Shown: positions 1,968-19,724 of the stretch, in pieces
How positions within the stretch are numbered: the first letter of the stretch is position 1
How the letters are laid out: every line of letters starts with the position of its first letter
Notes under the pieces: model-generated
Database searches by the model: none
Told to the model about the DNA's origin: nothing
Seen by the model: only the letters and a program-made list of their open reading frames with translations
Translations under genes and position numbers: made by a program
Assembly (NCBI GenBank): GCA_002474405.1
Contig: DLQW01000015.1
Span: forward strand, 17,963-37,686
Source: Christensenella sp. UBA7597
GTDB taxonomy: Bacteria > Bacillota > Clostridia > Christensenellales > Borkfalkiaceae
Direction of reading: 5' to 3'
Length of the DNA stretch: 19,724 bases

Positions 1968-2031
1968 ATACCTGTAAACAGCGAGAGCAAGTGAAACGGC
2001 GACGAACCGAACGAAAGCCTCGGCGGTTTAC

Positions 2032-2105: not shown

Positions 2106-2129
2106 ATTCCGAATTTAAAAATCATTTCA

Positions 2130-2158: not shown

Positions 2159-2178
2159 CCTGTTTTTTTGCGTATTTT

Positions 2179-3598: not shown

Positions 3599-3614
3599 GG
3601 CGAAAAGCGCAATA

Positions 3615-3633
3615 TTTTTCCGCAGCGGAAAAA
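3615..3633. promoter_or_regulatory. Perfect palindrome in the divergent promoter region
   Basis: TTTTTCCGC (3615-3623) and GCGGAAAAA (3625-3633) are exact complements around a single A. It lies 17 bp upstream of the DUF368 -35 box, in the 283-bp gap between the divergent DUF368 and 3810 genes. The surrounding AATATTTTT (3611-3619) is also complementary to AAAAATATT (3640-3648). Candidate operator; function inferred from symmetry and position only. Confidence 0.3.
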
Positions 3634-3727
3634 GTTTACAAAAATATTACATTCTGCCGCGTTTTTTTGGCTGTTTTACAGTGATTTTATGTGTATTCCG
3701 GGCTGTTTTTTGCGTGATTTTCGCCGA

Positions 3728-3741
3728 AAAAACGCGTTTTT
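3728..3741. promoter_or_regulatory. Palindrome AAAAACGCGTTTTT upstream of gene 3810
   Basis: A perfect 14-bp palindrome ending 10 bp before the -35 box of the rightward promoter. It shares the core AAAACGCG with the palindrome inside the DUF368 promoter spacer (3577-3584), so one regulator could act on both divergent promoters. Inference only. Confidence 0.3.
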
Positions 3742-3751
3742 CGAGCTTATT

Positions 3752-3779
3752 TTGCACGTTTTTACGCCGAAATTATAGT
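3752..3779 (+). promoter_or_regulatory. Probable promoter of the 3810 gene
   Basis: TTGCAC (3752-3757) and TATAGT (3774-3779) are separated by 16 bp, about 30 bp before the ATG at 3810. An overlapping TAAAAT two bases downstream could serve as an alternative -10. Confidence 0.45.
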
Positions 3780-3809
3780 AAAATACAAGAAAAAAGAGGG
3801 TGAAACAAT

Positions 3810-4799: not shown

Positions 4800-4815
4800 G
4801 CAGCCTTAAATATTT

Positions 4816-5772
4816 TTAATTTTCGTCTACGTAATAGAACGTATCGTCGGAGCGGCGCTTCACTTTTTTGAAATTGCCGATGGTTTCGTTCACCGTTTCC
4901 ACAAAAGCGAACGTATCCGGATACTTTCTGATGATATTTTCAAAATCCACGATCTGATGCCGGCTGACAACGCAGATGATGACGTCGCGTTCCGTGTTGC
5001 TGTACACGCCCGTGCCGATCATCTTTGTGGCGCTGTGTTTGAGTTTCTCCACGATTTCCTTATCGATTTCTTCCGCGTGCCGCGTGATAATCATAAATTT
5101 ATACGCCGACTTCACGCCCTGCAGACTGCGGTTTGCCATAAACGACGAGATGAAGCTGTACAGAACGCACATGCACACGGGTTTGTAATTGCGGATTACG
5201 GCGCCCGTTTCCGGATTGACATCGGTATATACGAAATACGAAGAAATCGCCACGACGGCGTTCAGCGCGAACAGCACCCAAACGAAATTCAGATTAGGAA
5301 CCTTTTTATTGACGAATTTCGAAATGACGTCGGTTCCGCCCGTGGAGCCGTTGCGACGGAACGCCATTCCGTACGCAAAGCCGCTGATGACGCCCGAAAT
5401 GAGCACGGGATAGATGGTATCGGCGCCCTTGGCATCGTAACGGAAACTGCCGAGCGCGTTGGTTTTGCTGAGCAGAAGATATACGCCCGAATAAATGATG
5501 CAGTACGCGCCCGTTTTCAGCGCGAAATCTTTTTCCACGAAAAAGTATGCCAGCACGCAAAGGGGCAGATTGATAATCAGCGACATATAGGCGAGGTTCA
5601 TTCTTCCGCCCGTAAGATAATCGATCATCGTAGCCACGCCGTTCAAGCCGGACGGCGCGAATTTATTCTGCACCACGAACAAATCGTAATTGAGCGCCAT
5701 TAAAACAGCCATTGCCGCAATGACGGCGTAATCGGCAAATTTTGCTTTGCCTGCGCGTTTTTCCATCGACAT
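4816..5772 (-). CDS. YitT family membrane protein with DUF2179 domain (second of tandem pair)
   Basis: A 318-residue protein with about five to six N-terminal membrane helices (residues 13 to about 218) and a C-terminal soluble DUF2179 domain (about 225-312). The YitT motif STGGTD is at residues 143-148. The APSGLNGVATM segment after helix 1 and the IIRKYPDTFAFVE segment near the end are also family-typical. YitT proteins are inner-membrane proteins of unresolved function; DUF2179 resembles small ligand-binding folds. AGGAG lies 10 nt before the first ATG (5770-5772), and the alternative Met3 is less well placed. It follows the paralogous gene at 5834-6793 by 61 bp on the same strand and is probably transcribed from the promoter at 6848-6876. 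Confidence 0.9.
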   Translation of the reverse strand: MSMEKRAGKAKFADYAVIAAMAVLMALNYDLFVVQNKFAPSGLNGVATMIDYLTGGRMNLAYMSLIINLPLCVLAYFFVEKDFALKTGAYCIIYSGVYLLLSKTNALGSFRYDAKGADTIYPVLISGVISGFAYGMAFRRNGSTGGTDVISKFVNKKVPNLNFVWVLFALNAVVAISSYFVYTDVNPETGAVIRNYKPVCMCVLYSFISSFMANRSLQGVKSAYKFMIITRHAEEIDKEIVEKLKHSATKMIGTGVYSNTERDVIICVVSRHQIVDFENIIRKYPDTFAFVETVNETIGNFKKVKRRSDDTFYYVDEN

Positions 5773-5833
5773 TTTTTATTTTCTCCTGCAGTATAAGCCC
5801 GTTTCCGACGCGCGGACGGGCGGTTGATTCGAT

Positions 5834-6793
5834 TTATTTCGCCTCTTCGTCCTGTCGGCGACGGAAGTTGCCCGATACCCCCGCCACTTCGGTGTAGTAT
5901 ACGAACGTATCCGGATATTTTTTGAGTATGTTTAAGAATTCGGGAATCTGCCGCAGGTTCACCACGGAAAAAATCACCGCGCTGTCGCTTTCCGTAAACA
6001 TGCCCTTGCTTTCCACCACCGTGGCGCCGTGTTTTAAATTGTACAGAATTTCGCCGCGGATTTCTTCGGGGTGTTTGGTTACGATTTTAAATTCCACCGC
6101 GTTGCGCGAATCTTTCATGAACGTCGCCGCCACGCGTTCGTACACGAACATCTGCACCACCGAAAGCAGAATACTGTCCAGCCGGCGGTACACCGCGTAG
6201 GAAATGAAGATGATGGAATACGAAATGACGGCGATTACCCTTTCCACGTTTAAATACGGGCGGTTTTTCTGCACCATGCACGCCACGATATCCACTCCGC
6301 CCGTAGACATGCCGATGCGAAGCAGCATGCCCATTCTGGCGCCCAGAATGATGCCCGAAAAAATGGCGGGAAGGAATCGGTCCGTTTCCGTATGGTACTG
6401 ATAAAAGCCGATTTTTCTGAGAATAATCAGAAACAGCGAATTCAATACGGTGAACGCCAGCGTGCCGATGACGTACCGTTTTTTCAGCACGAACAGCGCG
6501 GCGATAAGCAACGGCGCGTTAAGCATAAGCATATACCAGCCCGCGTTGAGCCCCGTGATTTTTTGCAGCATCGTGGCGACGCCGTCCATGCCCGCAGGCG
6601 CAAATTCGGCGGGGTACACGAACACGTGAAAGCCGAGGGCGGACATGATTGCCGCCAGCAGCACCGTAGCCGCGTCCAGAAAAATACCCTTCGTTTTTTT
6701 ACCGTCCGGGCGGAACTGTTTTGCGCCCGACGATTTGTCGCCGTCCGTCCTGTTTTGTTCGCCGACGGCGTTTTTTTCGTTTTCAGCCGACAT
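5834..6793 (-). CDS. YitT family membrane protein with DUF2179 domain (first of tandem pair)
   Basis: A 319-residue paralogue of the downstream protein with the same layout: membrane region about residues 37-222, STGGVD at 163-168, DUF2179 domain about 232-310 ending in LKKYPDTFVYYTEV. Unlike its neighbour it has a hydrophilic N-terminal extension of about 35 residues (many E, N, K, D, G) before helix 1. The ATG at 6791-6793 is preceded by GGGAG at a rather long 12 nt, so initiation may be weak or regulated. A leader hairpin lies further upstream (6814-6839). The first gene of the two-gene operon; the exact role of the family is unknown. Confidence 0.9.
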   Translation of the reverse strand: MSAENEKNAVGEQNRTDGDKSSGAKQFRPDGKKTKGIFLDAATVLLAAIMSALGFHVFVYPAEFAPAGMDGVATMLQKITGLNAGWYMLMLNAPLLIAALFVLKKRYVIGTLAFTVLNSLFLIILRKIGFYQYHTETDRFLPAIFSGIILGARMGMLLRIGMSTGGVDIVACMVQKNRPYLNVERVIAVISYSIIFISYAVYRRLDSILLSVVQMFVYERVAATFMKDSRNAVEFKIVTKHPEEIRGEILYNLKHGATVVESKGMFTESDSAVIFSVVNLRQIPEFLNILKKYPDTFVYYTEVAGVSGNFRRRQDEEAK

Positions 6794-7020: not shown

Positions 7021-8880
7021 TTACGCGTTCTTTCTCTTTTCCGCAATCGCGATTGCCGCCGCCGAAACGAGTGCGGCGAAAATGCCGCCGCCCACGGAAG
7101 ATTTGCAACCGCCTTTTTTCTCTTCCTGCTTCGGATAGTCCACGCGGAAAGCGCGCGTATACGTAACCCGTTCCACTTCTTCGTATGCGGCGATGACTTC
7201 GGCGTGATCTTCGTACTTTTTCACGGCGAAAATCGTGCCGTCCTGTTCCTCCGTATCGCCTGCGTATGTGGTGGTGATCAGACGGATTTTTCCGCCCGCT
7301 TTCAGTTCCGCCGCTTCGGCGCTCTGCCCCGCCTTGCCTTCGATTTTGCAGACGGATGCGCCGAACGCGTCCGCCACGTTATTCGTCAGCCCGAATTCGC
7401 CTGCGGACGACAGGGAAATGCAATCCTGCGCCGAACCGATCGTCCAGCAGAAGCTCATGTAGCCCCTGTCTTTCAGCGTGCTTTCGAAATACGTGTAATC
7501 GCCGAGGTTGCCCTGCGTGATATCGGCAACGGCGTTATAGGCGTTGTAAAACGCGCTGTCCTCTTCGAAGCTTCTCTGCGCGAAGCCGGAAAGCGAAGCC
7601 ACGGGCACTTCGGGAAGCACTTCGTGCATGGTTTCCAGAACCGTCGAACTGAAAGAAATTACCGTCATCTGATCCCAGAAATCGTAGGTTTCTATCAGTT
7701 TGCGCAGCTCCGTTACCAGCGCGGGCGCGGCGTTTTTGATTTCGAACACGAACACCACCGGCTTGCCCTTGAATTCTTTGAAGAAATCTTCCGCCGTGGG
7801 AATTTCGCAAGCCTCGGTTTTGTAGCCGTTCATCGTTTTGCACACTTTATAGCGCCGTATTTCTTCCAGCGTCATATCGGAAATGTTCTGCGCGCCCGAT
7901 TCGTAATCGGTTGTGCGGGCGATGCTTGCGTCGTGCATGATGACGATCTGATTGTCCTTGGAAAGCTGCGCGTCGATTTCGATGTGCGTGGCGCCGCTTT
8001 CCACGGCGGCTTTGCAGCCTTCGACGGTGTTTTCCGCTCTGGTTACGGGCAGACCGCGGTGCGCGATATTCAGAGAGTATCTCGCCACGGACGGCTGAAT
8101 ATACTTTCCGCCCTCGTTCAGGCTGCCGCCTTTATAGGATGCGTACGCTTTGAAAATTGCGGAACAATCGTTTTTAATCAGTCCGTACGTGCCCGAAGCC
8201 ACGGCGTTTTTCACGTCGAACGCGTCGGCGTCGTCGGGAAGTTCCGTCCATACCGTTTTCATGCGGCTCTGGAAATACGTTACGGTTTCGAGGTCGCTCT
8301 GTTCGTAGGAAAGAATCAGCGTGGTTGCCATGGCGGCGCCGGACGTTTTTATGATTTCCTTTTTATCCGTAAGCGGTTTTGCAGAGCAATCGTAAATGCC
8401 GCGGATGCCGGGCAGGGCGCCGCGCACGTAGGAAAGCACGTCGGCGTTATCGGAAAGCACGGCGATATCCGAGATTTTGTTGCTTTCGTATGCCGAAACG
8501 AAGGCTTCCGCCACGCTCTGCGTTTTAATTTCCGCCACGGGAATCGCGGCTAGATAAATCTGCGCGAACACGTCGTCGAACGAGCCGATGACGCCGCCGG
8601 AAGCGGACAGCACGTTCATTCCGTCGTCCAGCGTTAAAATAACGTTTGCGGGGCGTTCGTCGGAAGAAAGATCGATTTCGCCGAGGGCGTCCTCGTTTTT
8701 CAGGCGAAGAATCACGGACGGCGCGCCGTACAGTTTGTATCTTTCGTCCGGTTCGGTTTTGACGAACGACGACGAATCCGCCGACGCGGAAAACGCGGAC
8801 GAAGCGAGAGGCGCCGCGGCACCGAGGCACGCCGCGCCGAGAAATACGGAAGCAAGCAGACAATTCAGTGATTTTTTCAT
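7021..8880 (-). CDS. Secreted glycerophosphodiester phosphodiesterase-family protein with C-terminal anchor
   Basis: A 619-residue protein with a signal peptide (about residues 1-33) and a catalytic GDPD barrel (about 268-512). The family signature is complete: H274-R275-G276, E283-N284, E301 and D303, H316-D317, ARTTD at 321-325, and E380/K382. The first half (about 50-265) looks like a second, degenerate barrel: it has ILTLDDG and a TVWTELPDDAD...GTYGLIKND ending that parallels CWTIGSAQD...GEFGLTNN of the catalytic half, but no HRG. A linker domain (about 525-585) leads to a C-terminus G-C-K-S-S-V (591-596), hydrophobic stretch and basic tail, shared with the LamG protein at 17479. GDPD enzymes cleave glycerophosphodiesters or teichoic-acid-type polymers; the substrate here is unknown. 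It is last in the operon, 37 bp after the GH43 gene, with GAGGGG before the ATG. Confidence 0.85.
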   Translation of the reverse strand: MKKSLNCLLASVFLGAACLGAAAPLASSAFSASADSSSFVKTEPDERYKLYGAPSVILRLKNEDALGEIDLSSDERPANVILTLDDGMNVLSASGGVIGSFDDVFAQIYLAAIPVAEIKTQSVAEAFVSAYESNKISDIAVLSDNADVLSYVRGALPGIRGIYDCSAKPLTDKKEIIKTSGAAMATTLILSYEQSDLETVTYFQSRMKTVWTELPDDADAFDVKNAVASGTYGLIKNDCSAIFKAYASYKGGSLNEGGKYIQPSVARYSLNIAHRGLPVTRAENTVEGCKAAVESGATHIEIDAQLSKDNQIVIMHDASIARTTDYESGAQNISDMTLEEIRRYKVCKTMNGYKTEACEIPTAEDFFKEFKGKPVVFVFEIKNAAPALVTELRKLIETYDFWDQMTVISFSSTVLETMHEVLPEVPVASLSGFAQRSFEEDSAFYNAYNAVADITQGNLGDYTYFESTLKDRGYMSFCWTIGSAQDCISLSSAGEFGLTNNVADAFGASVCKIEGKAGQSAEAAELKAGGKIRLITTTYAGDTEEQDGTIFAVKKYEDHAEVIAAYEEVERVTYTRAFRVDYPKQEEKKGGCKSSVGGGIFAALVSAAAIAIAEKRKNA

Positions 8881-8917
8881 TTTCCCCCCTCTTTTTTTGT
8901 TTTTCCGACGACGCCGT

Positions 8918-9757
8918 TTACGGTTCGTCGATGATTTTCATTCTTTCCATCGGCGCGAAGTTCGGCTGATGCAAAACGATGTGCTCCTTCCCCTGCAAAT
9001 CGGTGAAACGCATGCAATGTCCGCCGTCTTTTTCGAAAATTTTTCTCTTCGCGACGTAATCGCCGCGGACGCCGTTTTCGCTGACGCTTTCAAACACGGA
9101 ATAGCCCGTTTTCGTATACGTGGACCACAGCAGCGAAATATTGCCGTCCTTTTCGTACAGGTACGGTCCTTCCGCCACGTAGCCCGTGGTTTTGCCCTCT
9201 TCTCCGATTTGCACGGCGAAGCCGCTGTATCTGCCGCTGACGATTTTTTTAGGCTGCTCCGTAAGCGCCGTCAGGTCATCCGACAGGCGAGCGATAAACA
9301 GGCTGCCGTCGCCGTCGCCCGTAATCGGCGTCGTCCATTCGTTGGAAAAACACAGATACGGCGCGCCGCGGTACACGAACAACGTGGCGTCGAGACACCC
9401 CCAGCCCGCGGGCGTGATATATTCGCCCGTGAGCGGTTTGAAATCGCCGTTTAAACCGTCGGACACGAAAATAATGCTGCCTCTGCCCTTATCTTCGCGG
9501 AATACGGAAAAAATCAGATAGAATTTCCCGCGGTACTCGTGCAGTTCGGGCGCCCATACGTTGGTGTAGCCCGCGAGATACCGGGGCTGCACCATCACGC
9601 ATTTTTCGGCGAATGTTTCGAGATTCTGCGATTCGTACAAAACGAGATTGCTGCCTTTCACCCACGGATCTTCGCCCGTGGTGCCGAGAAGATAATATCT
9701 GTTATCGCGCACGAGGACGAACGGATCGCGGATTCTGAGATTTTCTCTTGTTATCAT
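8918..9757 (-). CDS. GH43-type five-bladed beta-propeller glycosidase
   Basis: A 279-residue protein without a signal peptide, so cytoplasmic. Repeated beta-strand blades and the three catalytic acids of clan GH-F (GH43) are visible: Asp11 in RDPF, Asp123 in LDATLF and Glu196 in AEGPYLY. WAPE (68-71) and a late histidine in GGHCMRF (245-251) are also family-typical. Members act mainly on arabinose, xylose or galactose side chains; the exact specificity cannot be read from sequence. The chain is short, only the catalytic propeller without an extra beta-sandwich domain. The gene starts 15 bp after the alpha-galactosidase stop, with AAAGGG upstream. Its neighbours suggest it completes the breakdown of an imported oligosaccharide. 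Confidence 0.8.
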   Translation of the reverse strand: MITRENLRIRDPFVLVRDNRYYLLGTTGEDPWVKGSNLVLYESQNLETFAEKCVMVQPRYLAGYTNVWAPELHEYRGKFYLIFSVFREDKGRGSIIFVSDGLNGDFKPLTGEYITPAGWGCLDATLFVYRGAPYLCFSNEWTTPITGDGDGSLFIARLSDDLTALTEQPKKIVSGRYSGFAVQIGEEGKTTGYVAEGPYLYEKDGNISLLWSTYTKTGYSVFESVSENGVRGDYVAKRKIFEKDGGHCMRFTDLQGKEHIVLHQPNFAPMERMKIIDEP

Positions 9758-9772
9758 ACCTTTTCCCTTTAA

Positions 9773-11884
9773 TCAGCCGTTTTTCTTCAGAAGAATCACA
9801 CAGCCGAAATTTTTTTCTTTGCCGGATACGAACGTCAGTTTACCGCCCTTCATTTTCGTATCGGCGGGCGCGTTAAACGCATCCGCGACGGAATAATTTC
9901 CGCAATCTATTTCAAAATGATGATTTTCCGATTCGATGGCGAACGCGTACACGATTTTATAAACGCCGTCGTCCGAACGGCGGACGAGATACGGCGCGCC
10001 TTTCGCGAAAAGGTAGCTTGAAATTCCGCCGTCGTTGATTTCCAGCGTTTCGCCGTGCGCGATTGTCGGCTTGAGTTTTTCGTAGAACGCCACCGATTCT
10101 TTTAAGATATCCGTGATTTCCTTCGGTTTGTTGCCGAGGTTGCCCGAAAAACAGATTCTGCCGAGCATGGCTTTCGCCACGGTGAATTTTACGTCGTCCG
10201 CGTTGTATTCGTCGCGGATCGTCGCCCAGATCTGCAGCATTGCGGGAGGGATAAAGCGGTGCAGATTCATGGCGATGGGTACGCCGCCCGCGTTTTCGTG
10301 CGCGTCGGAAAACGAGCACATATCCCCCAGCGACAGGAAGCGGGGTTCGTGCCGCATGCCGCCCGACGAGCAGATTTCGAGAATCAGCGAAGGAACGGTT
10401 CTTCTGATTTCTTCGAAGAACGCCAGCACGCCGTCGATATGCTGCCGTATCGCTTCGCCGTACGATTCCGCGCCGTCGGCGCCGAAGCCCGTATTGCCGT
10501 TATAATCCACCTTCATATAGCCGATGCCGTTATCGACGAGGTTTTTAATGACTTTTTCGCGCAGGTATTCTTTCACTTCCTCTTTACGGAAATCGAGGAA
10601 CGTTTTGCCGCCGTGATTGATGATTTTTCCGTCGCACGTGAGCAGCCATTCGGGGTGCTCCCTGTATAAATCGCTGCTTTCGCTGACGCATTCGAATTCG
10701 TACCAGATGCCGGGAATCATGCCGTAGGAACGGACTTTATCGGCAAACGCTTTCAAGCCGTCCGGATAATATTCGCGGTTGACGTTCCAGTCGCCGATGA
10801 CGTAGCGTTTTTCGTTGTAGACGTTGTAAAACCAGCCGTCGTCCACCACGAAATATCTGCAGCCGAGCGAGGCGATCGTCGGGAGCATTTTTCCCAGCGT
10901 TTTCGCTTCCGGTTTGCCCCACGTGTAGCAGTATTCGTTATATAATACGGGCAGATCGCGCTCGGTTTCCCCGACGACGCGGTTATCGAAATGCCTGACG
11001 AGGCGCGCGGCGGCTTTTTCCAATCCGCCTTTCGCCACCGTGAGCCACGCTTTGCCCGTGCGTTCGGTTTCGCCCGTCCGCAGCGTTTTGCGCCAGTGCG
11101 CGGAAAGGAAATCTCCTCTGCCGCCGCCCACGGAAATCGCGTTGTTGCGGAACACGGCTTCGAGCGTCCACGACGCGGGCGCTTCGATTTCCGCCGCCCA
11201 GCAAACGCCGTTCTTTTTATCTTCCACCGAGATGAACGGCAGATAGCCGCGGGCGGGCATCGTGCCCGTCTGCGAAATGCGCAGCGTGCGCACGCCGAGC
11301 CCCGACCACGAGGCTTCGAACGCAAGATCCGCCGCCATAACCGAATATAATTTTCCCTCGCCGCTCCAATTGCTGATCAGCCTGTGAATCACTATGTCGC
11401 GCGGGTCGTCGAACCGTTCGAAAGGCGAAAGGCGCGCCATATTGAAGCTTGGAAGCGCCTCCACGGTAACGGGGTTCCCGCGGTTTTCCAGCTCGGTATA
11501 CGTTTCGATGCAGCCCGCGCCGCAAAGGGAATATACCTGACGGGCAATCAGTCCGTTTTCGTTCCGGAACGTTGCCGTGAGAGTTTTTCTGCCGTTTTCT
11601 TCCGAAAGCCGTACGCCGCCGAATTTCAGCGAAAAAGCCGTATCGCTGTTGCGGAGCGTGATGCCGGGCGAAAAATCGTTGGCGATGCCGTCGCCGGAAA
11701 GCGCGACGTGTACCTGCGCTTCCGGGGAAATCATCCAGCCGAGAGGCGAGATTCCGGCAAGTTTTTCGTCGTTCAGTTTTTCCTGCATGCCCTCCGGAAT
11801 AAACACCGTTTCGGTTACTCCGTCTACGGTAACGAAGGCCACCGCGATATCGCCCAGTTGATAAAATTTCTTGTCTATAGTCAT
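9773..11884 (-). CDS. GH36 alpha-galactosidase
   Basis: A 703-residue cytoplasmic enzyme with no signal peptide. An N-terminal beta-sandwich (about residues 1-300) precedes the catalytic barrel (about 310-620) and a small C-terminal beta domain. GH36/clan GH-D motifs are clear: VVDDGW (346-351), GDWN with YPDGL (364-377), the nucleophile Asp460 in YMKVDYN, CSSGG (505-509) and the acid/base Asp527 in FSDAHE. Reaction: hydrolysis of terminal alpha-linked galactose; GH36 also contains alpha-N-acetylgalactosaminidases, so that specificity is an alternative. Length matches the family. The start at 11884 has no clear Shine-Dalgarno sequence, unlike its operon neighbours, and follows a 58-bp gap that contains a hairpin, so translation may be coupled or separately controlled. 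Confidence 0.9.
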   Translation of the reverse strand: MTIDKKFYQLGDIAVAFVTVDGVTETVFIPEGMQEKLNDEKLAGISPLGWMISPEAQVHVALSGDGIANDFSPGITLRNSDTAFSLKFGGVRLSEENGRKTLTATFRNENGLIARQVYSLCGAGCIETYTELENRGNPVTVEALPSFNMARLSPFERFDDPRDIVIHRLISNWSGEGKLYSVMAADLAFEASWSGLGVRTLRISQTGTMPARGYLPFISVEDKKNGVCWAAEIEAPASWTLEAVFRNNAISVGGGRGDFLSAHWRKTLRTGETERTGKAWLTVAKGGLEKAAARLVRHFDNRVVGETERDLPVLYNEYCYTWGKPEAKTLGKMLPTIASLGCRYFVVDDGWFYNVYNEKRYVIGDWNVNREYYPDGLKAFADKVRSYGMIPGIWYEFECVSESSDLYREHPEWLLTCDGKIINHGGKTFLDFRKEEVKEYLREKVIKNLVDNGIGYMKVDYNGNTGFGADGAESYGEAIRQHIDGVLAFFEEIRRTVPSLILEICSSGGMRHEPRFLSLGDMCSFSDAHENAGGVPIAMNLHRFIPPAMLQIWATIRDEYNADDVKFTVAKAMLGRICFSGNLGNKPKEITDILKESVAFYEKLKPTIAHGETLEINDGGISSYLFAKGAPYLVRRSDDGVYKIVYAFAIESENHHFEIDCGNYSVADAFNAPADTKMKGGKLTFVSGKEKNFGCVILLKKNG

Positions 11885-11904
11885 AGTAATCTGAATTGTC
11901 GGAC

Positions 11905-11943
11905 GTTCCGCCGCGCGGAACTTTGGTGCGCGTATAACGTTAT
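11905..11943 (-). promoter_or_regulatory. Intercistronic hairpin and palindrome before the alpha-galactosidase gene
   Basis: The 58-bp gap between the LplC-like and GH36 genes holds a perfect 7-bp stem GTTCCGC/GCGGAAC with 3-nt loop (11905-11911 with 11915-11921), and a 10-bp palindrome ATAACGTTAT (11934-11943) touching the stop codon of the permease gene. No T-tract follows, so this is more likely an mRNA processing or stability element than a terminator. It may separate enzyme expression from transporter expression. Confidence 0.4.
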
Positions 11944-12869
11944 CAGCCTTTCACAGCGCCGATCATCACGCCCTTCGTGAAATATTTCTGCAACAAAGGA
12001 TAGATAATCAGAATGGGAATGAGCCCGATGACGATCATCGCGGCGTTGGAGCCTTGTTCGAACACTTTGGAAGGATCCCAGCCGCCGCCCTGTCCTTCGC
12101 CGCGTTCGTTGTTGAGTCCCTGACGGATTTTCAGGGCGAGAGGCGCGAGTTCGCTTCTTTCCTGCAGGAAGATGGCGGGCCAGTACCAGTCGTCCCACTT
12201 GGCGACGAGGTAGTACATCATAATGGTTGCCACGCCCGCTTTGGAAAGCGGAATCACGAACGAGAAAAGAATCCGGAATTCGCTTGCGCCGTCCAGCCGG
12301 CAGGAATCGATGATGCTTTCCGGCACCTGATTGAAAAAGTTGCGGAGCACGATCATATTGAAGGTGTTGATGCCGAAAGGAATGATGAGCGACCACAGGT
12401 TTTCCGTGCCCACCGTGTTGTTTACGGTGAGATAGAACGGAACCAGTCCGCCGCCGAAGAACATCGTGCAGATGATGAAAAAGAAGATGATTTTCAAGCC
12501 CGGAACGTCTTTCTTCGTAAACGCGTACGCGCCGAGAGACGTGAGTACGAGGCTGTAAATCACGCTGCCGATCGTAACGACGAGAGATACGCCGAACGCC
12601 TGAAAGATTTTATCCTGATACAGCGTAACTTTGTAGTTTTCGAAATTGAAGTGTTTGGGGAACACGATGAGATTCGCGTTCAGGTAATCGTTCTTGGAAG
12701 AGAAACTCAACAGCAGTTCGTATACGCAGGGAAGAACGCACACAAGGGCGAAGATGCCGAGGAGCGTATAGTTCACCCAGTCGAACGCCGTCATTTTGTT
12801 CTTCCTGACGTACTGCGCCTGTCCGTCGATGATTTTTATCGTATAGTTGGGATTATCCGCTTTATTCAT
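11943..12869 (-). CDS. LplC/CUT1-type sugar ABC transporter permease
   Basis: A 308-residue permease of the binding-protein-dependent transport family (MalG/LplC side) with six membrane segments starting about residue 33. The cytoplasmic coupling loop is at about 184-210: its EAA triad is replaced by D-S-C, but the following R-L-D-G-A and VIPLSKAG are intact. The N-terminal cytoplasmic stretch (1-30) and the STKN-like loop after helix 1 (SFSSKNDYL) are typical of LplC-like subunits. It pairs with the LplB-like permease immediately upstream. The 9-nt gap contains TGAGGTGG, in which the stop codon of the upstream gene is part of the Shine-Dalgarno site, so translation is probably coupled. Confidence 0.9.
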   Translation of the reverse strand: MNKADNPNYTIKIIDGQAQYVRKNKMTAFDWVNYTLLGIFALVCVLPCVYELLLSFSSKNDYLNANLIVFPKHFNFENYKVTLYQDKIFQAFGVSLVVTIGSVIYSLVLTSLGAYAFTKKDVPGLKIIFFFIICTMFFGGGLVPFYLTVNNTVGTENLWSLIIPFGINTFNMIVLRNFFNQVPESIIDSCRLDGASEFRILFSFVIPLSKAGVATIMMYYLVAKWDDWYWPAIFLQERSELAPLALKIRQGLNNERGEGQGGGWDPSKVFEQGSNAAMIVIGLIPILIIYPLLQKYFTKGVMIGAVKG

Positions 12870-12878
12870 ACCGCCACC

Positions 12879-13883
12879 TCAATCGATAGAGAACATGCTG
12901 TAACCGTTAATCTTCTTCGTGATGAAGTTGCCTGCGAGAAGCAACACGAAGTTAACGGACGTTTTGAAGATACCCACCGCCGACGACAAAGGATAATCGT
13001 GTTCGTCCATAAACAGCCGGTACGCGTACGTATCGATGATATCCGCCGTATCGAACACGTTGGGACAATACAGGTTATACACCGAATCGAAGCCCGCGTT
13101 CATGATGTTGGAAAGCTGCATGATGAACATGACGGTGATGACGGGGAAAATCATGGGGAGTGTGATACGCAGAATAATGGAACCGCGCTTGCAGCCGTCG
13201 ATTTTCGCCGCTTCGTACAGCGACGCGTCGATGCCGCTGATCGCCGCGATATAGATAATCGTGCCCCAGCCCGTGCCCTTCCATATTTCCGCGACGATGA
13301 GAATCGTACGGAAAAATTCCGGACGAATCATGAACGCGACGCGTTCGCCGCCGAAAAGGGCGATGAGATTGTTGATGGCGCCGTCGTCTTTGGCAAGCAG
13401 CGTTTTGATGATGCCGCCGAGCACTACCCACGAAATGAAATTCGGCAGGTAAATCATCGTCTGCACCGCTTTCTTGTAGGACTTATTGAGCACTTCGTTG
13501 AGAAGCAGCGCCACGAGAATGGGCAGCGGGAAGCAGATGCACAGCTTCAGCACGGAGATAATCAGCGTGTTTCTGATGGCGCGCGGAAGATCGGGGAAGG
13601 AAAACAACCGGCGGAAGTTTTCCCAGCCTACCCACGGACTGCCCTCGATGCCGTACTTCGGACGGTAATCTTTCCAGGCGAGCGTGATGCCGTACATGGG
13701 AACGTACGAATACACTATGTAAAACAGCACGACGGGCAGAAGCATCAGATATATCTGCTTGTTCAGCACGATACGGCTTAACAGCCGCTTGAATTTTTTC
13801 TTTTTTCCGCCCTGCGCGGTTTCTGCCTTGGCGGAAACGTTTTCCGTTTCCGCGGCAGATTTGTTCTGAATATCGCTATTCAT
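12879..13883 (-). CDS. LplB-type sugar ABC transporter permease
   Basis: A 334-residue permease with a charged N-terminal cytoplasmic tail (about residues 1-40) and six membrane helices. The EAA coupling loop is well conserved: E224-A-A-K-I-D-G230, ending ITLPM at 240-244. The segments YLMLLPVVLFYIVYSYVPMYG (44-64) and YLPNFISWVV (145-154) are characteristic of LplB/YtcP-type CUT1 permeases, which import complex oligosaccharides with an LplA-type binding protein. The gene starts 9 nt after the GH28-like gene, and its site TGAGGAAAG fuses the upstream stop codon with the Shine-Dalgarno sequence. No ATP-binding subunit is encoded in the window; systems of this kind often use a shared MsmX-like ATPase encoded elsewhere. 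Confidence 0.92.
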   Translation of the reverse strand: MNSDIQNKSAAETENVSAKAETAQGGKKKKFKRLLSRIVLNKQIYLMLLPVVLFYIVYSYVPMYGITLAWKDYRPKYGIEGSPWVGWENFRRLFSFPDLPRAIRNTLIISVLKLCICFPLPILVALLLNEVLNKSYKKAVQTMIYLPNFISWVVLGGIIKTLLAKDDGAINNLIALFGGERVAFMIRPEFFRTILIVAEIWKGTGWGTIIYIAAISGIDASLYEAAKIDGCKRGSIILRITLPMIFPVITVMFIMQLSNIMNAGFDSVYNLYCPNVFDTADIIDTYAYRLFMDEHDYPLSSAVGIFKTSVNFVLLLAGNFITKKINGYSMFSID

Positions 13884-13892
13884 ATTCTTTCC

Positions 13893-15569
13893 TCATTTTA
13901 CGGTAAGTTCGTCGAAATATTTGCCTGCCAGATTTCTGAACAGGGACGAATCTTCTTTATCGGCGGCAGTAAGTATTCTGCCGCAGAAATCGATATTCTG
14001 CAACGTGATGTTTTCGATGGAGCCGCCCGCAGCCGAAAAGTTCATCGTAAACGCGTACACGCCCGTTTCCGTGGAATGCACCTTGATGTTTTTAAACAGA
14101 ACGTTCTTTAAATTGCCGCCTCTGCCGTTTATCTGACAGATCATTACGTTGGGCGAAACGCAGCGGTATACTTCGATGTTTTCGAAAGTGATGTTTTCCC
14201 ACGTTTTCGTTGCGTTGGTGCCCAGCCGGCAATCGAGCGCGTTGTTGCCGCTTGACCAGGTGGGCTGCGCGAAGCCGACGTTGTTGTTTCTGAACACCAT
14301 GTCCGTCATGTCGCACTCCGATTCCCACGTGAGGCTGTAGCCCGAACCTTTGTCCGTCCAGCAATCGTTGTATTCGAAAATATTGTTGTTGCCTACCGTG
14401 CCCTGCGCGCTGCCGTTCTGCCAGCCGGTGCCCTTGTATTCGATGGCGTCGTCGCCCGTGCGCACGAAATTGTATCTGCCCGAAGAATTGCTGCATTCGC
14501 TGAACATCAACCCGTCGGAATACGTTCTGTAAGAAAGCAGCAGATTCGAATTAAAGCGTACGTTATCGGAATTGTAGGCACACATCGTCCAGGTGTTGGA
14601 ATTGATGACCGTAAGTCCTTCGATAAGCACGTTTTCCGCCGAGCCGACGTTGACGACGTGTTTGTGCTTATTGTCGCCGCCGAGCACTTCGCCCGTATCC
14701 AGAAGTCCGCGACCGAGAATCTGTACGTTTTCGGTGTTTTCGGTATGCAGCGCGGTGTTCGTGTTCCAGCCGGCGCCGTCGCTGCCGCGGTCGGTTACTT
14801 TGAGATACGCGCCGCGTTCGAGATAGAGAATACTGTTGGACGGAACTTTGACGGAAGAAATTTCGTGCAGACCTTTTTTGAAATAGTACACGGTTTCTTC
14901 TTCGGAAAATTCCAGTTCGTAATCGTCGTGATAACCCGCTTCGATATCGACGCGGTTGTAGCCGTCGGGCGTTTTCAACGGGGATTCCTGCGTTACCATC
15001 AGAGTGATCGGCGCAAACTTCGGATCGGTGGCTTCGGCGTCCTCGGTTTCGGCAAACGTGAACGTATACGAACCGTACTGCGTGATGAACGCGGAATACG
15101 TATTGCCGGATTTTTTCGCCTCTACGTTTTTGTTGAGCGGCAGCACCACGCACTTCGCGGCGCTTTCCGATAACGTAAGCTGCGTATCCAGCACGAAATC
15201 GCGCGTGTTATCCACCACGTCTACCCAGGCGTAAGAGTGCGAGCCTTTGCCGCAGCGCGCCGTGTACACGGGAACGGTTTTCCCGTTGATTTTCAGGGTG
15301 TGCCACGGGCTTTTAATCAGCGCGTCCGTGGTGGGCATATCGTTGTTTCCGCCGTTCGCGGTGAATACCTGTGCCTGCCAGGAAGCGGCGTCGCCCGCCT
15401 CCGTTTCTTCTATCTTTTTCACTTCCGCGTTGTCGTACACGGTAGCGACTATCGTGCCTTTCGCCTGCATGCCGGTATTTCCTCCGTTATCGGGATTTTC
15501 GGAACAGCCCGCCGACGAGAAAGCGAGAGCCGCCGCGCACAGGGCGGCAAGTAACGTCTTTTTCTTCAT
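13893..15569 (-). CDS. GH28-like right-handed beta-helix lipoprotein
   Basis: A 558-residue lipoprotein: signal peptide with lipobox SSAGC (Cys22), a beta-sandwich-like N-terminal region (about 30-200), and a parallel beta-helix (about 205-558) with many N-rich coil turns. Asp352 (YSDG) and Asp373-Asp374 (TGDDAIEYK) occupy the 21/22-residue spacing of the three catalytic aspartates of polygalacturonases (GH28). The GHG motif appears as GSGYSL (408-413), without histidine, and the RIK motif as R-L-G (Arg448), without lysine. A GH28-superfamily glycosidase with altered substrate specificity is the best reading; a GH49-like enzyme is an alternative. The start at 15569 is preferred over ATG 15626 because it gives a proper lipoprotein signal and has GGAGG just upstream. 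It follows the binding-protein gene by 118 bp. Confidence 0.8.
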   Translation of the reverse strand: MKKKTLLAALCAAALAFSSAGCSENPDNGGNTGMQAKGTIVATVYDNAEVKKIEETEAGDAASWQAQVFTANGGNNDMPTTDALIKSPWHTLKINGKTVPVYTARCGKGSHSYAWVDVVDNTRDFVLDTQLTLSESAAKCVVLPLNKNVEAKKSGNTYSAFITQYGSYTFTFAETEDAEATDPKFAPITLMVTQESPLKTPDGYNRVDIEAGYHDDYELEFSEEETVYYFKKGLHEISSVKVPSNSILYLERGAYLKVTDRGSDGAGWNTNTALHTENTENVQILGRGLLDTGEVLGGDNKHKHVVNVGSAENVLIEGLTVINSNTWTMCAYNSDNVRFNSNLLLSYRTYSDGLMFSECSNSSGRYNFVRTGDDAIEYKGTGWQNGSAQGTVGNNNIFEYNDCWTDKGSGYSLTWESECDMTDMVFRNNNVGFAQPTWSSGNNALDCRLGTNATKTWENITFENIEVYRCVSPNVMICQINGRGGNLKNVLFKNIKVHSTETGVYAFTMNFSAAGGSIENITLQNIDFCGRILTAADKEDSSLFRNLAGKYFDELTVK

Positions 15570-15573
15570 AATT

Positions 15574-15578
15574 CCTCC
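15574..15578 (-). promoter_or_regulatory. Ribosome-binding site fixing the start of the GH28-like gene
   Basis: GGAGG on the - strand, four nt before ATG 15567-15569. It supports the shorter protein beginning MKKKTLLAAL rather than the in-frame ATG at 15626, whose extra residues would spoil the signal peptide. Confidence 0.7.
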
Positions 15579-15664
15579 ATAATCATCGCCCGGAAAGCGA
15601 CAGGGCGGAGCCGCAACAAAATCCATCGGGCATATTTTGCCGCAACTCCGCCGAATCCGTTTAC

Positions 15665-15685
15665 TTTTCCCCCGACAGGGGAAAA
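15665..15685 (-). promoter_or_regulatory. Stabilising hairpin directly after the solute-binding protein gene
   Basis: A perfect 8-bp stem TTTTCCCC/GGGGAAAA (15665-15672 with 15678-15685) with a 5-nt loop begins two bases after the stop codon of the binding-protein gene. On the - strand it is followed by GTAAACGG, not a T-tract, so it is unlikely to stop all transcription. Such hairpins after binding-protein genes commonly protect the upstream message and keep the binding protein in excess over the permeases. A weaker, longer inverted repeat (CGGAG...CTCCG, 15605-15656) follows in the same 118-bp gap. Confidence 0.5.
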
Positions 15686-15687
15686 AA

Positions 15688-17475
15688 TCAGTCTTTGGTT
15701 ACTTTCACCGCTTTTCCGCTCTTAATGAAATCGTTGTATTCGCTTTGCATCTGCGAGCCTTTATAAGTGGTGTTGTACGTGTTTTTGAATTGATTCCACT
15801 CGTCCTGCATCTTCTGCGATACGGTGTAGAGTTTCGTCATGCCGTCCGTTTTCCACGTTTTCGCGTCGTACGTCCAGCCGGCGGCGAGAGAATCGCTGCC
15901 TTTCTTCACGATCATTTTCAGCACGGTTTCGTCGAAATAGGAATACGCTGCCGTCTGATACTGAATAATCGATTCGGTGGTAACGTCGGGATAATCGGAA
16001 AGGATCATGCACTTTTCGCTGGCTTCGGCGCGCGCCGTGAGAATATCTCCGTTGGTGAGCAGCGCTTCCGCTTCGTGCGGCGTGTAGGTAAGGTACGAGA
16101 TGAACGCCGCCGGATCCGTCCAGCGCAAAGCCTGAACAAAGCCCTGCGGATCGGCTTTGCAAAGCGAAACCTTTTCGCCGCCTTCTTCGTCGTCCTTCCA
16201 TTCCCAATGCTCGCCCATTACGCCGTAATTGACAAGTTCGAGCCCTTCGGGGCTGTGCAGATATTCCATCAGCTTCAGGCACGCTTCGCGGCGTTCCACG
16301 CTCATGCCGCTTCTGATGCACCAGCCGCGGTAGTACTGAATATCGCCCTGTCCGCCGTATTCGCCGTTTTTGCCCGCGGGAGGATCTTTGATGAGAATTT
16401 TCTCCCTTGCGCCCTGTACGGTGAGCCCGGAAGTGGCGCTCATCATCGTGGCGGAAATTACGTTATACCAGTTGTGCGCGTACATCATACCCGCTTTGCC
16501 GTTGGCGAAATCTTCCTGTTTGTTGCCCACGCTCTTGGTGGCGACTTCTTCGGAAACGTAGCCGTCGTTCACCATTTTGGCAAGCAGCGCCGTAGCCATC
16601 ATGGAAGAATCGGACGTGGCGCTGTTGGAATATTCGCCCGTAGCCGTATCTTTCATCCACATCTTCCAGCCCGTGCCGTACGCCACGTGCAGCCACGAAT
16701 CCATATCGCGGTTGCTTTCGGTAACGTAGCCGTACGTATCGTTTTTGCCGTTGCCGTCGGGATCGTACAGCGTGAACGCGCGCGCCAGTTCGTAGAAGTC
16801 CGCAATCGTCTGCGGTCCCTCTTCGTTGAACTTATGCTCGTTACGCATCTGCTCGGTGATCTGACTCTTATCCGACACCACGCCGTCCGCAACCAGAATA
16901 TCGTCGATTTTCTTGTTGAGGTTCTGAATCCAGTCTCGGCGGACGTACAACGATTTTTCGTTGCTCCACTTCACGGGGATGAACCAGCTCTTTCCGTTAG
17001 CGTACGTGAGGTTGGATTTCATGTAATCGTACTGCTGCATATATTCGTACAGGTACGGATACTTATCTTTCGTGGACTCGTTGACGTAATCGGAAATGGC
17101 GATGATTTCGTCGTCGCGGATGAGATTGTTGAAGAACTTGGGATCTTTCGGTCCGTTCACGATGAACATTTCCGTAAGGGTGCCCTTGTTTCTCATCAGA
17201 TCGAGCGTGCTGTAATACGTTTCGAGACCGGTGGATTTCGCCTGTATGTCGCACTTCGTAACGGCTTTCAGTTTTTTATACACGGGACTGTTTACCGCCG
17301 CGCCGTTATTGAACTGTTCCCAGTCGTTGCAGAACAAAGTAATGTTCTTGATGCTGTCCTCATGCCATTCTTCGTTTGCAGAACCGCCGCCGGGCTTCGC
17401 CTTGCAGGCGCCGACCGAAAGGACGACGCCGCAGGCTACCGCGCCCGTAACGATAGTTTTAATAAAATTTTTCAT
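15688..17475 (-). CDS. LplA-type sugar ABC transporter solute-binding lipoprotein
   Basis: A 595-residue extracellular binding protein. The signal peptide ends in lipobox VGAC (Cys24), followed by a glycine/serine-rich tether. The long chain, the motif NGKSWFIPVKW (about 155-165), the region KTPADFYELARAF-like TIADFYELARAFTLYDPDGNGKNDTYG, and the C-terminal Trp/Tyr-rich segment identify the LplA/YtcQ-like group of large CUT1 binding proteins, which capture oligosaccharides for LplB/LplC permeases. The gene begins 3 nt after the stop codon of the LamG gene, with AGAGG overlapping that gene's end, so the two are tightly coupled. It is followed by a hairpin likely to enhance its expression relative to the permeases. 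Confidence 0.92.
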   Translation of the reverse strand: MKNFIKTIVTGAVACGVVLSVGACKAKPGGGSANEEWHEDSIKNITLFCNDWEQFNNGAAVNSPVYKKLKAVTKCDIQAKSTGLETYYSTLDLMRNKGTLTEMFIVNGPKDPKFFNNLIRDDEIIAISDYVNESTKDKYPYLYEYMQQYDYMKSNLTYANGKSWFIPVKWSNEKSLYVRRDWIQNLNKKIDDILVADGVVSDKSQITEQMRNEHKFNEEGPQTIADFYELARAFTLYDPDGNGKNDTYGYVTESNRDMDSWLHVAYGTGWKMWMKDTATGEYSNSATSDSSMMATALLAKMVNDGYVSEEVATKSVGNKQEDFANGKAGMMYAHNWYNVISATMMSATSGLTVQGAREKILIKDPPAGKNGEYGGQGDIQYYRGWCIRSGMSVERREACLKLMEYLHSPEGLELVNYGVMGEHWEWKDDEEGGEKVSLCKADPQGFVQALRWTDPAAFISYLTYTPHEAEALLTNGDILTARAEASEKCMILSDYPDVTTESIIQYQTAAYSYFDETVLKMIVKKGSDSLAAGWTYDAKTWKTDGMTKLYTVSQKMQDEWNQFKNTYNTTYKGSQMQSEYNDFIKSGKAVKVTKD

Positions 17476-17478
17476 GCT

Positions 17479-19724
17479 TTAACCTCTTTTCTTCTTAAGT
17501 GCCGCGCACACCGCGATTCCCGCAGCCGCGAGCATTGCGGAGGACGCGATTACCGACGATTTGCAGCCGGATTTTTTAACTTCCTGCGCCTTTTCCGCGA
17601 ATGTTGCGGAAATTTCCACGTCGCTGTTGCCCTTGATCGTGAAGGTGTACGTGCCGTTTTCGTCCACCGTTACGGCTTCGCCGCCTACGGTGAGTTCTTT
17701 CAGTTCGTAGCCGTCGTTCGCCTGTACGGTGATTACGACGCTTTCGCCCAGTTTCGCCGCCGCTTTATCCGCGGTAACGGTACCGTTTTCGATGGTTTCG
17801 TCGATGACGATTTTTCTGTCTTTCTTTTCTACGGTAACTTCCTGTCTTACTTCGGTAACGCCCGTCAGAGTGGTGGCATAGCCGAGGTTGGTGGCGTCCA
17901 CTTCGCCGATCGCGTAATATTTGCCGTCCGATTCAAGCTTCACCGTCTTCCAGGTAACGCTTACGGGAATGGTGGTTTCGCCGTCGTCGAGAAGCGCGTT
18001 TACCGTAGCGGGCTTCAGGCGGTTGACGAACTGCGTGGCGGTGAGTTTATCGTTGAGTCCTTTTTCGTCCACATACACGCCTTCCGTTTCGAAATGAGGC
18101 GTGGAATCGATGGCAGAAATAATGGAGCCCTGCATATCCTGCACCGTTACTTTGCCCTTCTGCCAGTACGCGGCGGACTGCGCTTCGGTCATCGCGAAGT
18201 TATAGACGGTAACGTTATCCACCCAGCCTTTGAAATAATCGTAGCCGTTGCCCCATACGCATTCGGCGCCGATGGAGAACTGCATGTTCTGATGAGAGAG
18301 ATTCCAGCCTGCGGGGCAGGAGAACGACTGTACCTGTACGCCGTCCGCGTAGATTTTAACGAATTCGCCGGGACGAACGCTGAGCGTTACGTTGTGCATG
18401 GCATCCGCGATGTGCGTAAGCACTTCGGGACCCCAATACGCCTGATTTTCGCCCTTATCGTTCTTCGTGATGTCGTGCGCGTTGAAGCGGAGCATGTCGC
18501 CGCCGCCCGACGTTGCAACGAGGAATCTGCAATAGGTGCTGGCGCTCCAGTCGTTGAAACCGAAAGACACGGGAGCCGCCCATTCGCCTTTGTTGGGACG
18601 ATCGGAAATGTCGCCGTCCTGTTTCACCTGAAAGTTAAGCGTGAAGCCGTTGGAAATATTTTCGGTTACGTCGTTGAGTTCGGGAAGCGTGAGCATATCG
18701 TCGCCGCTTAAGTACAGCATGCCGTTTTCCACTTTGCCCGTGCCCGTGGGGTTGTTGGTTCTGTCGCCGTCCGCTTTCGCGCCGCACTGCAGCGTGTATT
18801 TGCCCATGGCGTCGTTCAGTTTGGTTTCTTCGGAATCGAACGTCCACTTCGCAACGGGAGTCAGTTCTTTAATCTTCCCTTCGTTGGTTTGCGTAACGGT
18901 GAGTTTCACTTCCGCCGTGGCTACTTTCTTGCCTTCCAGAAGAACGTCGCCGTACGCCGTGTACGAGCCCATATCCGCAACGATTTTATTGAAAGTTACG
19001 GTTACGTCCTGCGTGGAATCGTCGTCAAGCGTAACGGTTACGGTGGCGGTGTTGATGAGCGCAAGCATTTCCGCCTCGGTCATGCTGTCTTTCAGTTCGC
19101 CCGTCGTAATCGCGTTATCGGCGAACACGGGCGCGCCGATTTCCTTTACGGAAGCCACGGAAAGTTCGTAACGCACTTCGTTTACGAGGTTTGCGTAGCC
19201 GAGCTTTTTGGTATCGATCGTGCCTACGGCGTAATATTTTTCGCCGACTTTTTCCACTTTCTGCCATACGACGTTCGCGGAAGCCTTACCGCCGTCCGAA
19301 AGAGTGAGGTCCGCCGTGGCCGCGTTGAGCGATTCGAACATTTTTTCGACGCTCATCGCGCCGTTGAGCGCCACTTTCGTCGCGTCGCCTTCGAATTTCG
19401 CCGTTGCCGCGGTAATAGCGGTTACGCCAGAAAGATCGGCTGCGGTGAGTTTTCCGTTATTCGTATACGCAACCGCCGCCGTGTTATCCATTGCGAAGTC
19501 GTATACGATTACGTTTTTCAACGAAGCCGAGGAGGTGTATGCCGCCGCGCCGTTGAATTCGCCGCCGATAGAGAACATATTGTTTTCGTCGTACGCCGTC
19601 CAGGTAGCGGAAACGTCTTTCTCTTCGGAAAGCTGAACGCCGTCGTTCCATACGCGGAGTTTGCCGCCCGGCTGCGCGCTGATAATAATCGTATGATAGT
19701 TTTCCAGTTCGCCGTTAACGGCGG
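17479..19724 (-). CDS. Large secreted LamG/Ig-like protein with C-terminal anchor (5' end outside window)
   Basis: Only the last 747 residues are present; the frame stays open to the window's right edge, so ATG 19578 is internal. Layout of the visible part: end of a concanavalin/LamG-like domain (1 to about 95), Ig-like domain (about 105-193), another beta domain (about 196-280), a complete LamG domain (about 288-525; KWTFDSE start, MHNVTLSV...VKIYADG core), a second copy of the Ig-like domain (about 540-632), an InlB-type bacterial repeat (about 635-710), then G-C-K-S-S-V (719-724), hydrophobic segment and KKKRG tail. The LamG-Ig unit is duplicated (W.xV...KYYA.G..D...LGYA in both). LamG domains usually bind carbohydrate; an enzymatic domain may lie in the missing part. 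The gene heads the visible operon, so the promoter is outside the window. Confidence 0.85.
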   Translation of the reverse strand, partial: AVNGELENYHTIIISAQPGGKLRVWNDGVQLSEEKDVSATWTAYDENNMFSIGGEFNGAAAYTSSASLKNVIVYDFAMDNTAAVAYTNNGKLTAADLSGVTAITAATAKFEGDATKVALNGAMSVEKMFESLNAATADLTLSDGGKASANVVWQKVEKVGEKYYAVGTIDTKKLGYANLVNEVRYELSVASVKEIGAPVFADNAITTGELKDSMTEAEMLALINTATVTVTLDDDSTQDVTVTFNKIVADMGSYTAYGDVLLEGKKVATAEVKLTVTQTNEGKIKELTPVAKWTFDSEETKLNDAMGKYTLQCGAKADGDRTNNPTGTGKVENGMLYLSGDDMLTLPELNDVTENISNGFTLNFQVKQDGDISDRPNKGEWAAPVSFGFNDWSASTYCRFLVATSGGGDMLRFNAHDITKNDKGENQAYWGPEVLTHIADAMHNVTLSVRPGEFVKIYADGVQVQSFSCPAGWNLSHQNMQFSIGAECVWGNGYDYFKGWVDNVTVYNFAMTEAQSAAYWQKGKVTVQDMQGSIISAIDSTPHFETEGVYVDEKGLNDKLTATQFVNRLKPATVNALLDDGETTIPVSVTWKTVKLESDGKYYAIGEVDATNLGYATTLTGVTEVRQEVTVEKKDRKIVIDETIENGTVTADKAAAKLGESVVITVQANDGYELKELTVGGEAVTVDENGTYTFTIKGNSDVEISATFAEKAQEVKKSGCKSSVIASSAMLAAAGIAVCAALKKKRG

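Follow-up and report, generated by a model that had tools for sequence, protein, structure and literature searches.

The closest described counterpart of the system treated here is MYXO-CTERM, a C-terminal signal of Myxococcota that consists of an invariant Cys, a helix and a basic end and is served by CPBP-family proteases, the myxosortases (MrtX, MrtC, MrtP). In the part of PMC11980579 available to us, MrtX cleaves MYXO-CTERM, the Cys is proposed to be lipidated before cleavage, and the acyl-transferase is called unidentified, with Lgt as the leading candidate. The DNA studied here is a stretch of 19,724 nucleotides from Christensenella sp. UBA7597 (the window), part of contig C18 in a draft genome, G000 (1.76 Mb, 98 contigs, 86.7% complete), and it encodes two secreted surface proteins that share a C-terminal tail of similar layout, here called the GC tail. 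We hypothesize, with a probability of about 0.72 and on the evidence of sequence comparison, that this tail is a protein-sorting signal whose Cys is lipidated by Lgt2, a divergent Lgt (prolipoprotein diacylglyceryl transferase), and whose helix is removed by CPBP2, a candidate CPBP (Rce1/CAAX-type) intramembrane glutamic-type protease. The GC-tail system would then be a relative of the MYXO-CTERM/myxosortase system in Clostridia and Bacilli.

Hypothetically, this pathway has three steps. A tail protein would be exported by Sec via its N-terminal signal peptide, and the tail helix would act as a stop-transfer sequence, with the GC motif kept on the outer side of the membrane. Lgt2 would then put a diacylglyceryl group on the tail Cys. 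Finally, CPBP2 would cut on the helix side of the lipidated Cys, leaving the protein anchored by a C-terminal lipid, and the whole would be a mirror image of the Lgt/LspA processing of N-terminal lipoproteins. We infer the topology, the lipidation, the order of the steps and the cleavage site. That Clostridia and Bacilli have a dedicated C-terminal lipoprotein pathway, in which Lgt2 diacylglycerates the GC-tail Cys and CPBP2 is the C-terminal counterpart of LspA, we regard as somewhat better than an even bet.

The likeness to MYXO-CTERM takes in the invariant Cys, helix and basic end, the CPBP protease and the proposed lipidation of the Cys. The system is also of myxosortase type in its functional features: the Cys-helix-basic end stands at the extreme C-terminus of secreted proteins, and a CPBP with intact catalytic residues co-occurs with it, except in one family, f18. 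Unlike the GC tails, MYXO-CTERM belongs to Gram-negative bacteria in which type II secretion system (T2SS) export follows, and whereas the cognate acyl-transferase is described there as unidentified, as far as the accessible part of PMC11980579 goes, the GC-tail system has a genetically linked Lgt paralogue. Nine tail peptides scanned with the MYXO-CTERM model TIGR03901 gave at best 15.8 bits against a cut-off of 20, and none of the nine reached any of the NCBIfam Cys-CTERM models. CPBP2 of G000 scored 25-29 bits against Mrt_core NF040914, MrtS, MrtJ and MrtC (cut-offs 75-195; for MrtJ and MrtS 26-29 bits, with cut-offs of 75 and 130), and 16.9 bits against MrtP (cut-off 250). Because both the tails and the protease of G000 fall below the cut-offs of the published models, we class the system as a variant and not as a member. 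Among 18 CPBP2 members, 15 matched MrtJ and 10 matched MrtS at E<=1e-3, and the other 17 members reached a best E-value (not a bit score) of 1.2e-9 with the Mrt models, for MrtS.

Several other systems share some of these features. Haft 2024 reportedly describes the pairs Synerg-CTERM/MrtS, JDVT-CTERM/MrtJ and CGP-CTERM/MrtA, which are said to share Cys-containing tails and CPBP proteases with the system proposed here; they differ in belonging to other phyla, and their models match CPBP2 weakly. The genes for the JDVT tail and MrtJ are adjacent (PMC11980579, in the part seen). The Lgt/LspA pathway likewise combines an Lgt homologue with an intramembrane protease that works close to a Cys on the outer side of the membrane; in contrast to it, the GC-tail signal is C-terminal with inverted topology, the CPBP is glutamic-type instead of aspartic like LspA, and the paired Lgt2 proteins carry GRxGCxxxGCC[HYF]G where the canonical Lgts sampled from the order mostly have a GRWGNF.NQE-like motif. 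GlyGly-CTERM and rhombosortase resemble it in the tripartite C-terminal signal, the cut by an intramembrane protease and the surface attachment of the proteins, but rely on a rhomboid serine protease and a GG motif; we know of no CPBP or Lgt link for them. LPXTG and NPXTG sortase signals have the same tripartite layout in Gram-positives, and two of the nine tail peptides exceed the LPXTG model (19.2 and 16.6 vs 15.9) through helix and basic end, but GC tails have neither LPXTG nor a Thr-Gly cleavage motif.

The two window proteins lie on the minus strand. One is a GDPD-family secreted protein (7021..8880; PF03009 at 95.2 bits) with a signal-peptide-like N-terminus by eye, which ends in ...EEKKGGCKSSVGGGIFAALVSAAAIAIAEKRKNA; the other is a LamG/Big_4/InlB-repeat-like surface protein (17479..19722+, its 5' end outside the window) with the Pfam domains Laminin_G_3, Big_4 and Flg_new_2, which ends in ...QEVKKSGCKSSVIASSAMLAAAGIAVCAALKKKRG. 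Their tails, GCKSSV followed by a helix and a basic end, occupy the last 29 codons of each (7024..7110 and 17482..17568). An earlier sequence-only reading had reported both frames and their positions, the G-C-K-S-S-V motif, the hydrophobic run and the basic end, and our reading of the open reading frames (ORFs) agrees throughout. As it had also stated, the proteins have no other similarity, their domain make-up being different, and neither contains an LPXTG-like motif before the helix. A 39-N gap (L308:2388-2426, G000:C18) stands close upstream of the LamG frame, and on its far side a frame opens with a clear signal peptide.

The tail recurs within the genome, more than by chance. Used as a query, the GDPD tail gave six matches to further tails of G000, at E 4.7e-4 or weaker and without the LamG tail among them; a seven-tail profile recovered an eighth tail outside its own rows (C35:23943, E 8.5e-4), and a later tail profile added two signal-peptide-bearing carriers, one on C38 and one on C11. 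The genome thus has at least ten tails, with the motifs GGCKSSV, SGCKSSV, GGCKSSV, KGCRSSV, GGCKGNV, KGCSGAV, KGCKSSF, SGCGGFV, KGCKGSA and SGCKGAA. All five carriers whose N-terminus was read (GDPD, C18:81k, C35:41k, C38 and C11) have signal-peptide-like starts by eye, that of the last three being a Met inside a long frame.

It is also conserved among homologues. A scored set of the 7998 candidates sharing most words gave a list of 38 GDPD homologues at E<=1e-20, and by our reading 27 of these keep GC before the helix; five more have Cys only inside a GC-containing helix, one has NC, three have a plain helix and basic end, and two are tail-less. Tail-less homologues are therefore not the norm; had they been, this would, by the sequence-only reading, have spoken against a sorting signal. 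The consensus of 93 collected tails, all selected because they contain GC, is [KG]-G-C-[GKNS]-[SG]-[SA]-[VI], a hydrophobic helix and a K/R end. The length of exactly 29 residues from the G to the end, noted before as a shared feature, holds for both window proteins and not as a rule: it ranges from 25 to 36 over the 93 tails, 29 being the commonest value (22/93). These features suggest that the tail is a C-terminal sorting signal on secreted surface proteins.

The search for a protease began from the CPBP (PF02517) genes of G000, of which there are two. CPBP2 (G000:C62:13839-14738, minus strand) scores 58.5 bits against PF02517 (cut-off 22.4) and has the EExxxR, FxxxH and H motifs, which places it among the CPBP/Rce1-like proteins; CPBP1 (G000:C55) has no Lgt within its 3.3-kb locus. 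We compared tails and CPBP2 over 61 genomes of the order, made up of tail-bearing genomes from an earlier profile, their family mates and others of the order. Tails were called with profile A6 (E<=0.01, match covering the motif, query from <=9), some rows of which come from these same 61 genomes, and CPBP2 was called at >=79 bits. CPBP2 is present in 17/23 tail-bearing and 1/38 tail-less genomes (Fisher p 3e-9), and outside family f18 in 17/17 and 1/38 (p 3e-13), with genomes counted as independent and kinship uncorrected in both tests. The same holds within family f1 (7/7 vs 1/11). G210, taken as tail-bearing with model A3, which contains its own sequence, has no A6 match at E<=0.01 (0.427) and was counted tail-less, as were G012, G017, G034, G039, G045, G084 and G132, whose matches start after the motif. 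The match of G074 covers the motif narrowly (8-32, E 8.2e-5), and its tail was read directly (L297).

The association was also approached in reverse, by scanning the CPBP2 core alignment against genome contigs without tail information. This gave 55 loci, including some from Pumilibacter muris, P. intestinalis, Ca. Gallimonas merdae, and Oscillospiraceae and Clostridia metagenome-assembled genomes (MAGs), and also from Acholeplasmataceae, an Erysipelotrichaceae MAG and Ca. Izimaplasma HR2. Of the 55, nine were taken as order genomes already examined, which left 46 genomes for a tail search. Matches at E<=1e-4 were found in 38/46, or in 32/40 without the six genomes from which rows of A6 were drawn; among the matches listed, the best match of 36 of the 38 genomes is shown, all 36 covering the motif (G273 and G280 are not among them). 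No match at this threshold was found in G252, G258, G263, G270, G272, G276, G279 (Izimaplasma, with none at all) and G288. For comparison, 3/43 CPBP2-negative order genomes have a motif-covering match at 1e-4, all of them in f18. The match lies at the C-terminal end of an ORF in 28 of the 30 loci read, L240 and L241 not being recovered by the pattern used. Besides CPBP2, Pumilibacter muris and P. intestinalis each have 12 matches to the tail profile (E<=0.01), of which a single one, in P. intestinalis, does not cover the motif. In a class-wide sample of 391 genomes CPBP2 reaches >=246 bits in four (G000, G042, G064, G538), too small a number to support a profile at class level, and stands apart from the next best score of 101; of the 55 loci, L228 (96 bits) and L226 (121 bits) approach that range. 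The sequence-only reading had suggested that the tail is a sorting signal of CTERM type served by its own membrane protease; recurrence of the tail and the co-occurrence of a glutamic-type CPBP, the type used by MYXO-CTERM systems, support that proposal, and the cleavage itself would fall to CPBP2.

CPBP2 has retained its catalytic residues. In an alignment of 66 rows from 64 genomes (G170 and G224 entered twice), E154, E155, R159, F188, H192 and H235 are invariant in 66/66, and N195, in the second motif, is kept in 64/66. A Cys seven residues before the glutamates, universal in 18 sequences, is missing in a minority of the 66 and was discarded as a hallmark. The predicted structure (pLDDT 89) has SpdC as its only likely fold match (E 0.068), and no PDB relative was found by sequence. 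SpdC is itself counted among the CPBPs in the part of PMC7387801 that we have seen.

Directly 5' of CPBP2, with overlapping reading frames, lies Lgt2 (G000:C62:14722-15540). It scores 112.8 bits against PF01790 (cut-off 24.9) and belongs to the Lgt family, but stays below the canonical Lgt equivalog TIGR00544 (92.2 bits, cut-off 118.9); its predicted structure (pLDDT 92) matches E. coli Lgt (5azb, Foldseek prob 1.00), to which the Lgt2 profile aligns over most of its length. By profiles built on canonical Lgts and on 33 Lgt2 rows, an Lgt homologue adjoins CPBP2 in 29/55 loci, 27 on the same strand and 26 overlapping when the first possible start is taken, against 0/35 loci of other CPBPs, where the flanks are ~1.5 kb or less (Fisher p 1.5e-8). 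In the order sample G215 and G235 are arranged as in G000, the pair of G047 stands at the end of its contig, and in G064 the neighbour is divergent; in all, 34/64 CPBP2 genomes show the pairing. The paired Lgts have H..GRxGCxxxGCC[HYF]G in 34/34, whereas most canonical Lgts sampled in the order are Q..GRWGNF.NQE-like, and on the tree the canonical Lgts (plus two GC-type rows) split from the Lgt2 side with support 100/99. The 47-row Lgt2 clade also holds standalone genes of tail-bearing genomes (G095, G112, G177, G230, G046, G105, G087, G121, G029, G074 and G170). The only Lgt found in G028, a 0.9-Mb genome (L090), is of GC..GCCYG type but retains the Q of canonical Lgts, which makes it intermediate between the groups.

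A tail protein stands beside the Lgt2-CPBP2 pair in 5/55 loci, where ~0.58 would be expected among 110 flanking genes: 5' and on the same strand in L184, L211 and L227, 3' in L228 and convergent in L205. The six neighbours have signal-peptide-like starts; four contain Big_3, CBM9 or GH3 and two have no Pfam match. The idea, voiced before, that the invariant Cys could be lipidated gains support from the linked Lgt homologue, which would carry out that lipidation. In L227 two tandem CBM9-domain proteins (2004-3317 and 3610-4854) have identical tail helices, a local duplication beside Lgt2-CPBP2. In L157-L159 (Pumilibacter muris, G095; P. intestinalis, G177; and G241) no Lgt adjoins CPBP2, and a patatin-like gene (motif GGGGARGFAHIG, by eye) is found close by instead.

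Several observations weigh against the reading proposed here. G042 has CPBP2 and no tail found (best E 0.288), the paired loci L226 (121 bits) and L228 (96 bits) score hardly higher or no higher than other CPBPs (up to 103) with the CPBP2 model, the Acholeplasma-like L200, L203 and L223 have the Lgt2-CPBP2 pair with one or two tail matches (best E 0.03, 9.5e-6 and 0.2), and the genomes are mostly MAGs. Of the CPBP2 loci, 26/55 are without an adjacent Lgt (3 of them with <1 kb upstream), and eight tail-bearing genomes have a single Lgt gene (G018, G074, G093, G140, G170, G224, G241, G246). Four of these eight were typed: G074 and G170 have the Lgt2 type, G140 a long-branch form outside the Lgt2 clade, and G241, which has tails and CPBP2, only a canonical Lgt. 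Of the alternatives, the most serious is that CPBP2 cuts the tail while the housekeeping Lgt lipidates the Cys, or the Cys stays unlipidated, Lgt2 being a spare enzyme that is merely co-transcribed. G241 would fit this alternative. Lgt2-type genes also occur in the tail-less G210 and G102 (long branch), and the only Lgt found in G170 is of this type, so that Lgt2 is associated with the system and not restricted to tails. A second Lgt copy was given up as a clean marker, since some tail-less genomes have several Lgts and several tail-bearing ones have one. Furthermore, MrtX worked in E. coli, and the authors' leading candidate is Lgt (PMC11980579, in the part seen). Against this alternative stand the adjacency of 29/55 vs 0/35, the common form of the paired Lgts (34/34) and their clustering on the tree, and the situation in G000 itself, where a canonical Lgt (C20:77207) with LspA 1.8 kb further on is kept on another contig, which makes Lgt2-CPBP2 an extra pair. 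We consider this alternative unlikely, with something like the odds of a single roll of a die.

Two further alternatives are distinctly less probable, and we rate them about equally low. In the first, Lgt2-CPBP2 is a module for N-terminal lipoproteins, either an LspA replacement or an acylation partner like LnsB, and the co-occurrence with tails is indirect. The CPBP-like LnsB does act in lipoprotein N-acylation in S. aureus (PMC7387801, as far as seen), and Izimaplasma HR2 (L209) has the pair and no tail match. However, LspA was found in 56/64 CPBP2-bearing genomes, G000 included, and in 16/16 CPBP2-negative genomes tested, so CPBP2 does not generally stand in for LspA. The catalytic motifs are intact in CPBP2, whereas LnsB diverges from the CPBP signature motifs in the accessible part of the same source (PMC7387801), and tail proteins lie beside the pair while the tail profile follows CPBP2. 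The substrates in the Acholeplasma- and Izimaplasma-like genomes with the pair may have a diverged signal.

In the second, the tail is the substrate of another protease (a rhomboid, a sortase-like enzyme or another CPBP), and CPBP2 serves some other purpose. The protease profiled against the tails was CPBP2, and family f18 has tails in 6/6 genomes (G018, G046, G068, G087, G105, G121) and CPBP2 in none. In two f18 genomes, G046 and G105, a tandem pair of CPBP genes of a type other than CPBP2 (L151, L153) occurs besides the standalone genes of the Lgt2 clade, so the tails of that family may be handled by a different protease. Elsewhere, CPBP2 in all 17 tail-bearing genomes outside f18 and tail genes adjoining the Lgt2-CPBP2 pair speak against this explanation.

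Marginally weaker still is the view that the tail is an unprocessed transmembrane anchor and GC a loose sequence preference at the membrane edge. It would account for the three GDPD homologues with a plain helix and basic end and no Cys (P0007, P0024, P0025) and for the five with Cys only inside the helix. The constant part of the tails, in the set chosen for GC, is nevertheless the motif and not the helix sequence, and tails go together with one protease subfamily. Finally, although the first motif residues of the two window proteins are nearly identical, a single recent 3' duplication, which the sequence-only reading had raised against itself, can practically be dismissed: GCKSSV is spelled GGT TGC AAA TCT TCC GTG in the GDPD gene and GGC TGC AAA TCG TCG GTA in the LamG gene, the helices are unrelated, and the tail recurs on ten different carriers in this genome and in many others.

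The tail genes of the window belong to a set of eight genes on one strand, from 19722 down to 7021 with small gaps, which fits the earlier description of one operon and looks like a carbohydrate-use operon. Between the LamG and GDPD genes lie, all on the minus strand, genes for a solute-binding-like protein (15688..17475; identified by eye, no Pfam match at E<=1) with the N-terminal lipobox VGAC of an ordinary N-terminal lipoprotein, a probable beta-helix protein (13893..15626; by eye, no Pfam match over the cut-off) with the N-terminal lipobox SAGC, two sugar ABC transporter permease-like proteins (12879-13883 and 11943-12869; by eye), a melibiase-type glycosidase (9773-11884; Pfam) and a GH43 protein (8918-9757; Pfam). 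With two proteins bearing N-terminal lipoboxes by eye, the operon mixes N-terminal lipoproteins and tail proteins. On its 3' side lie two adjacent membrane protein genes (4816-6793), which we take to be YitT-like.

In the accessible part of PMC11980579, Cys-type C-terminal sorting signals are known from Gram-negatives and archaea, and the lipidating enzyme is called unidentified. That paper aside, no work linking an Lgt gene to a CTERM system was found in the literature searched, some of which was accessible in part. If our hypothesis is true, the Lgt2-CPBP2 operon links an acyl-transferase genetically to a protease, the first such pair for a Cys-type CTERM in that literature, and G000 runs two parallel lipoprotein pathways, Lgt1-LspA for N-termini and Lgt2-CPBP2 for C-termini. 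The conserved pair, sometimes with a tail gene beside it, names a candidate for the lipidation step, so that the two-step model can be put to the test in laboratory hosts. Many glycosidases and adhesin-like proteins that gut Clostridia secrete would gain a sorting rule as well, among them some with tails that a model scores as LPXTG anchors.

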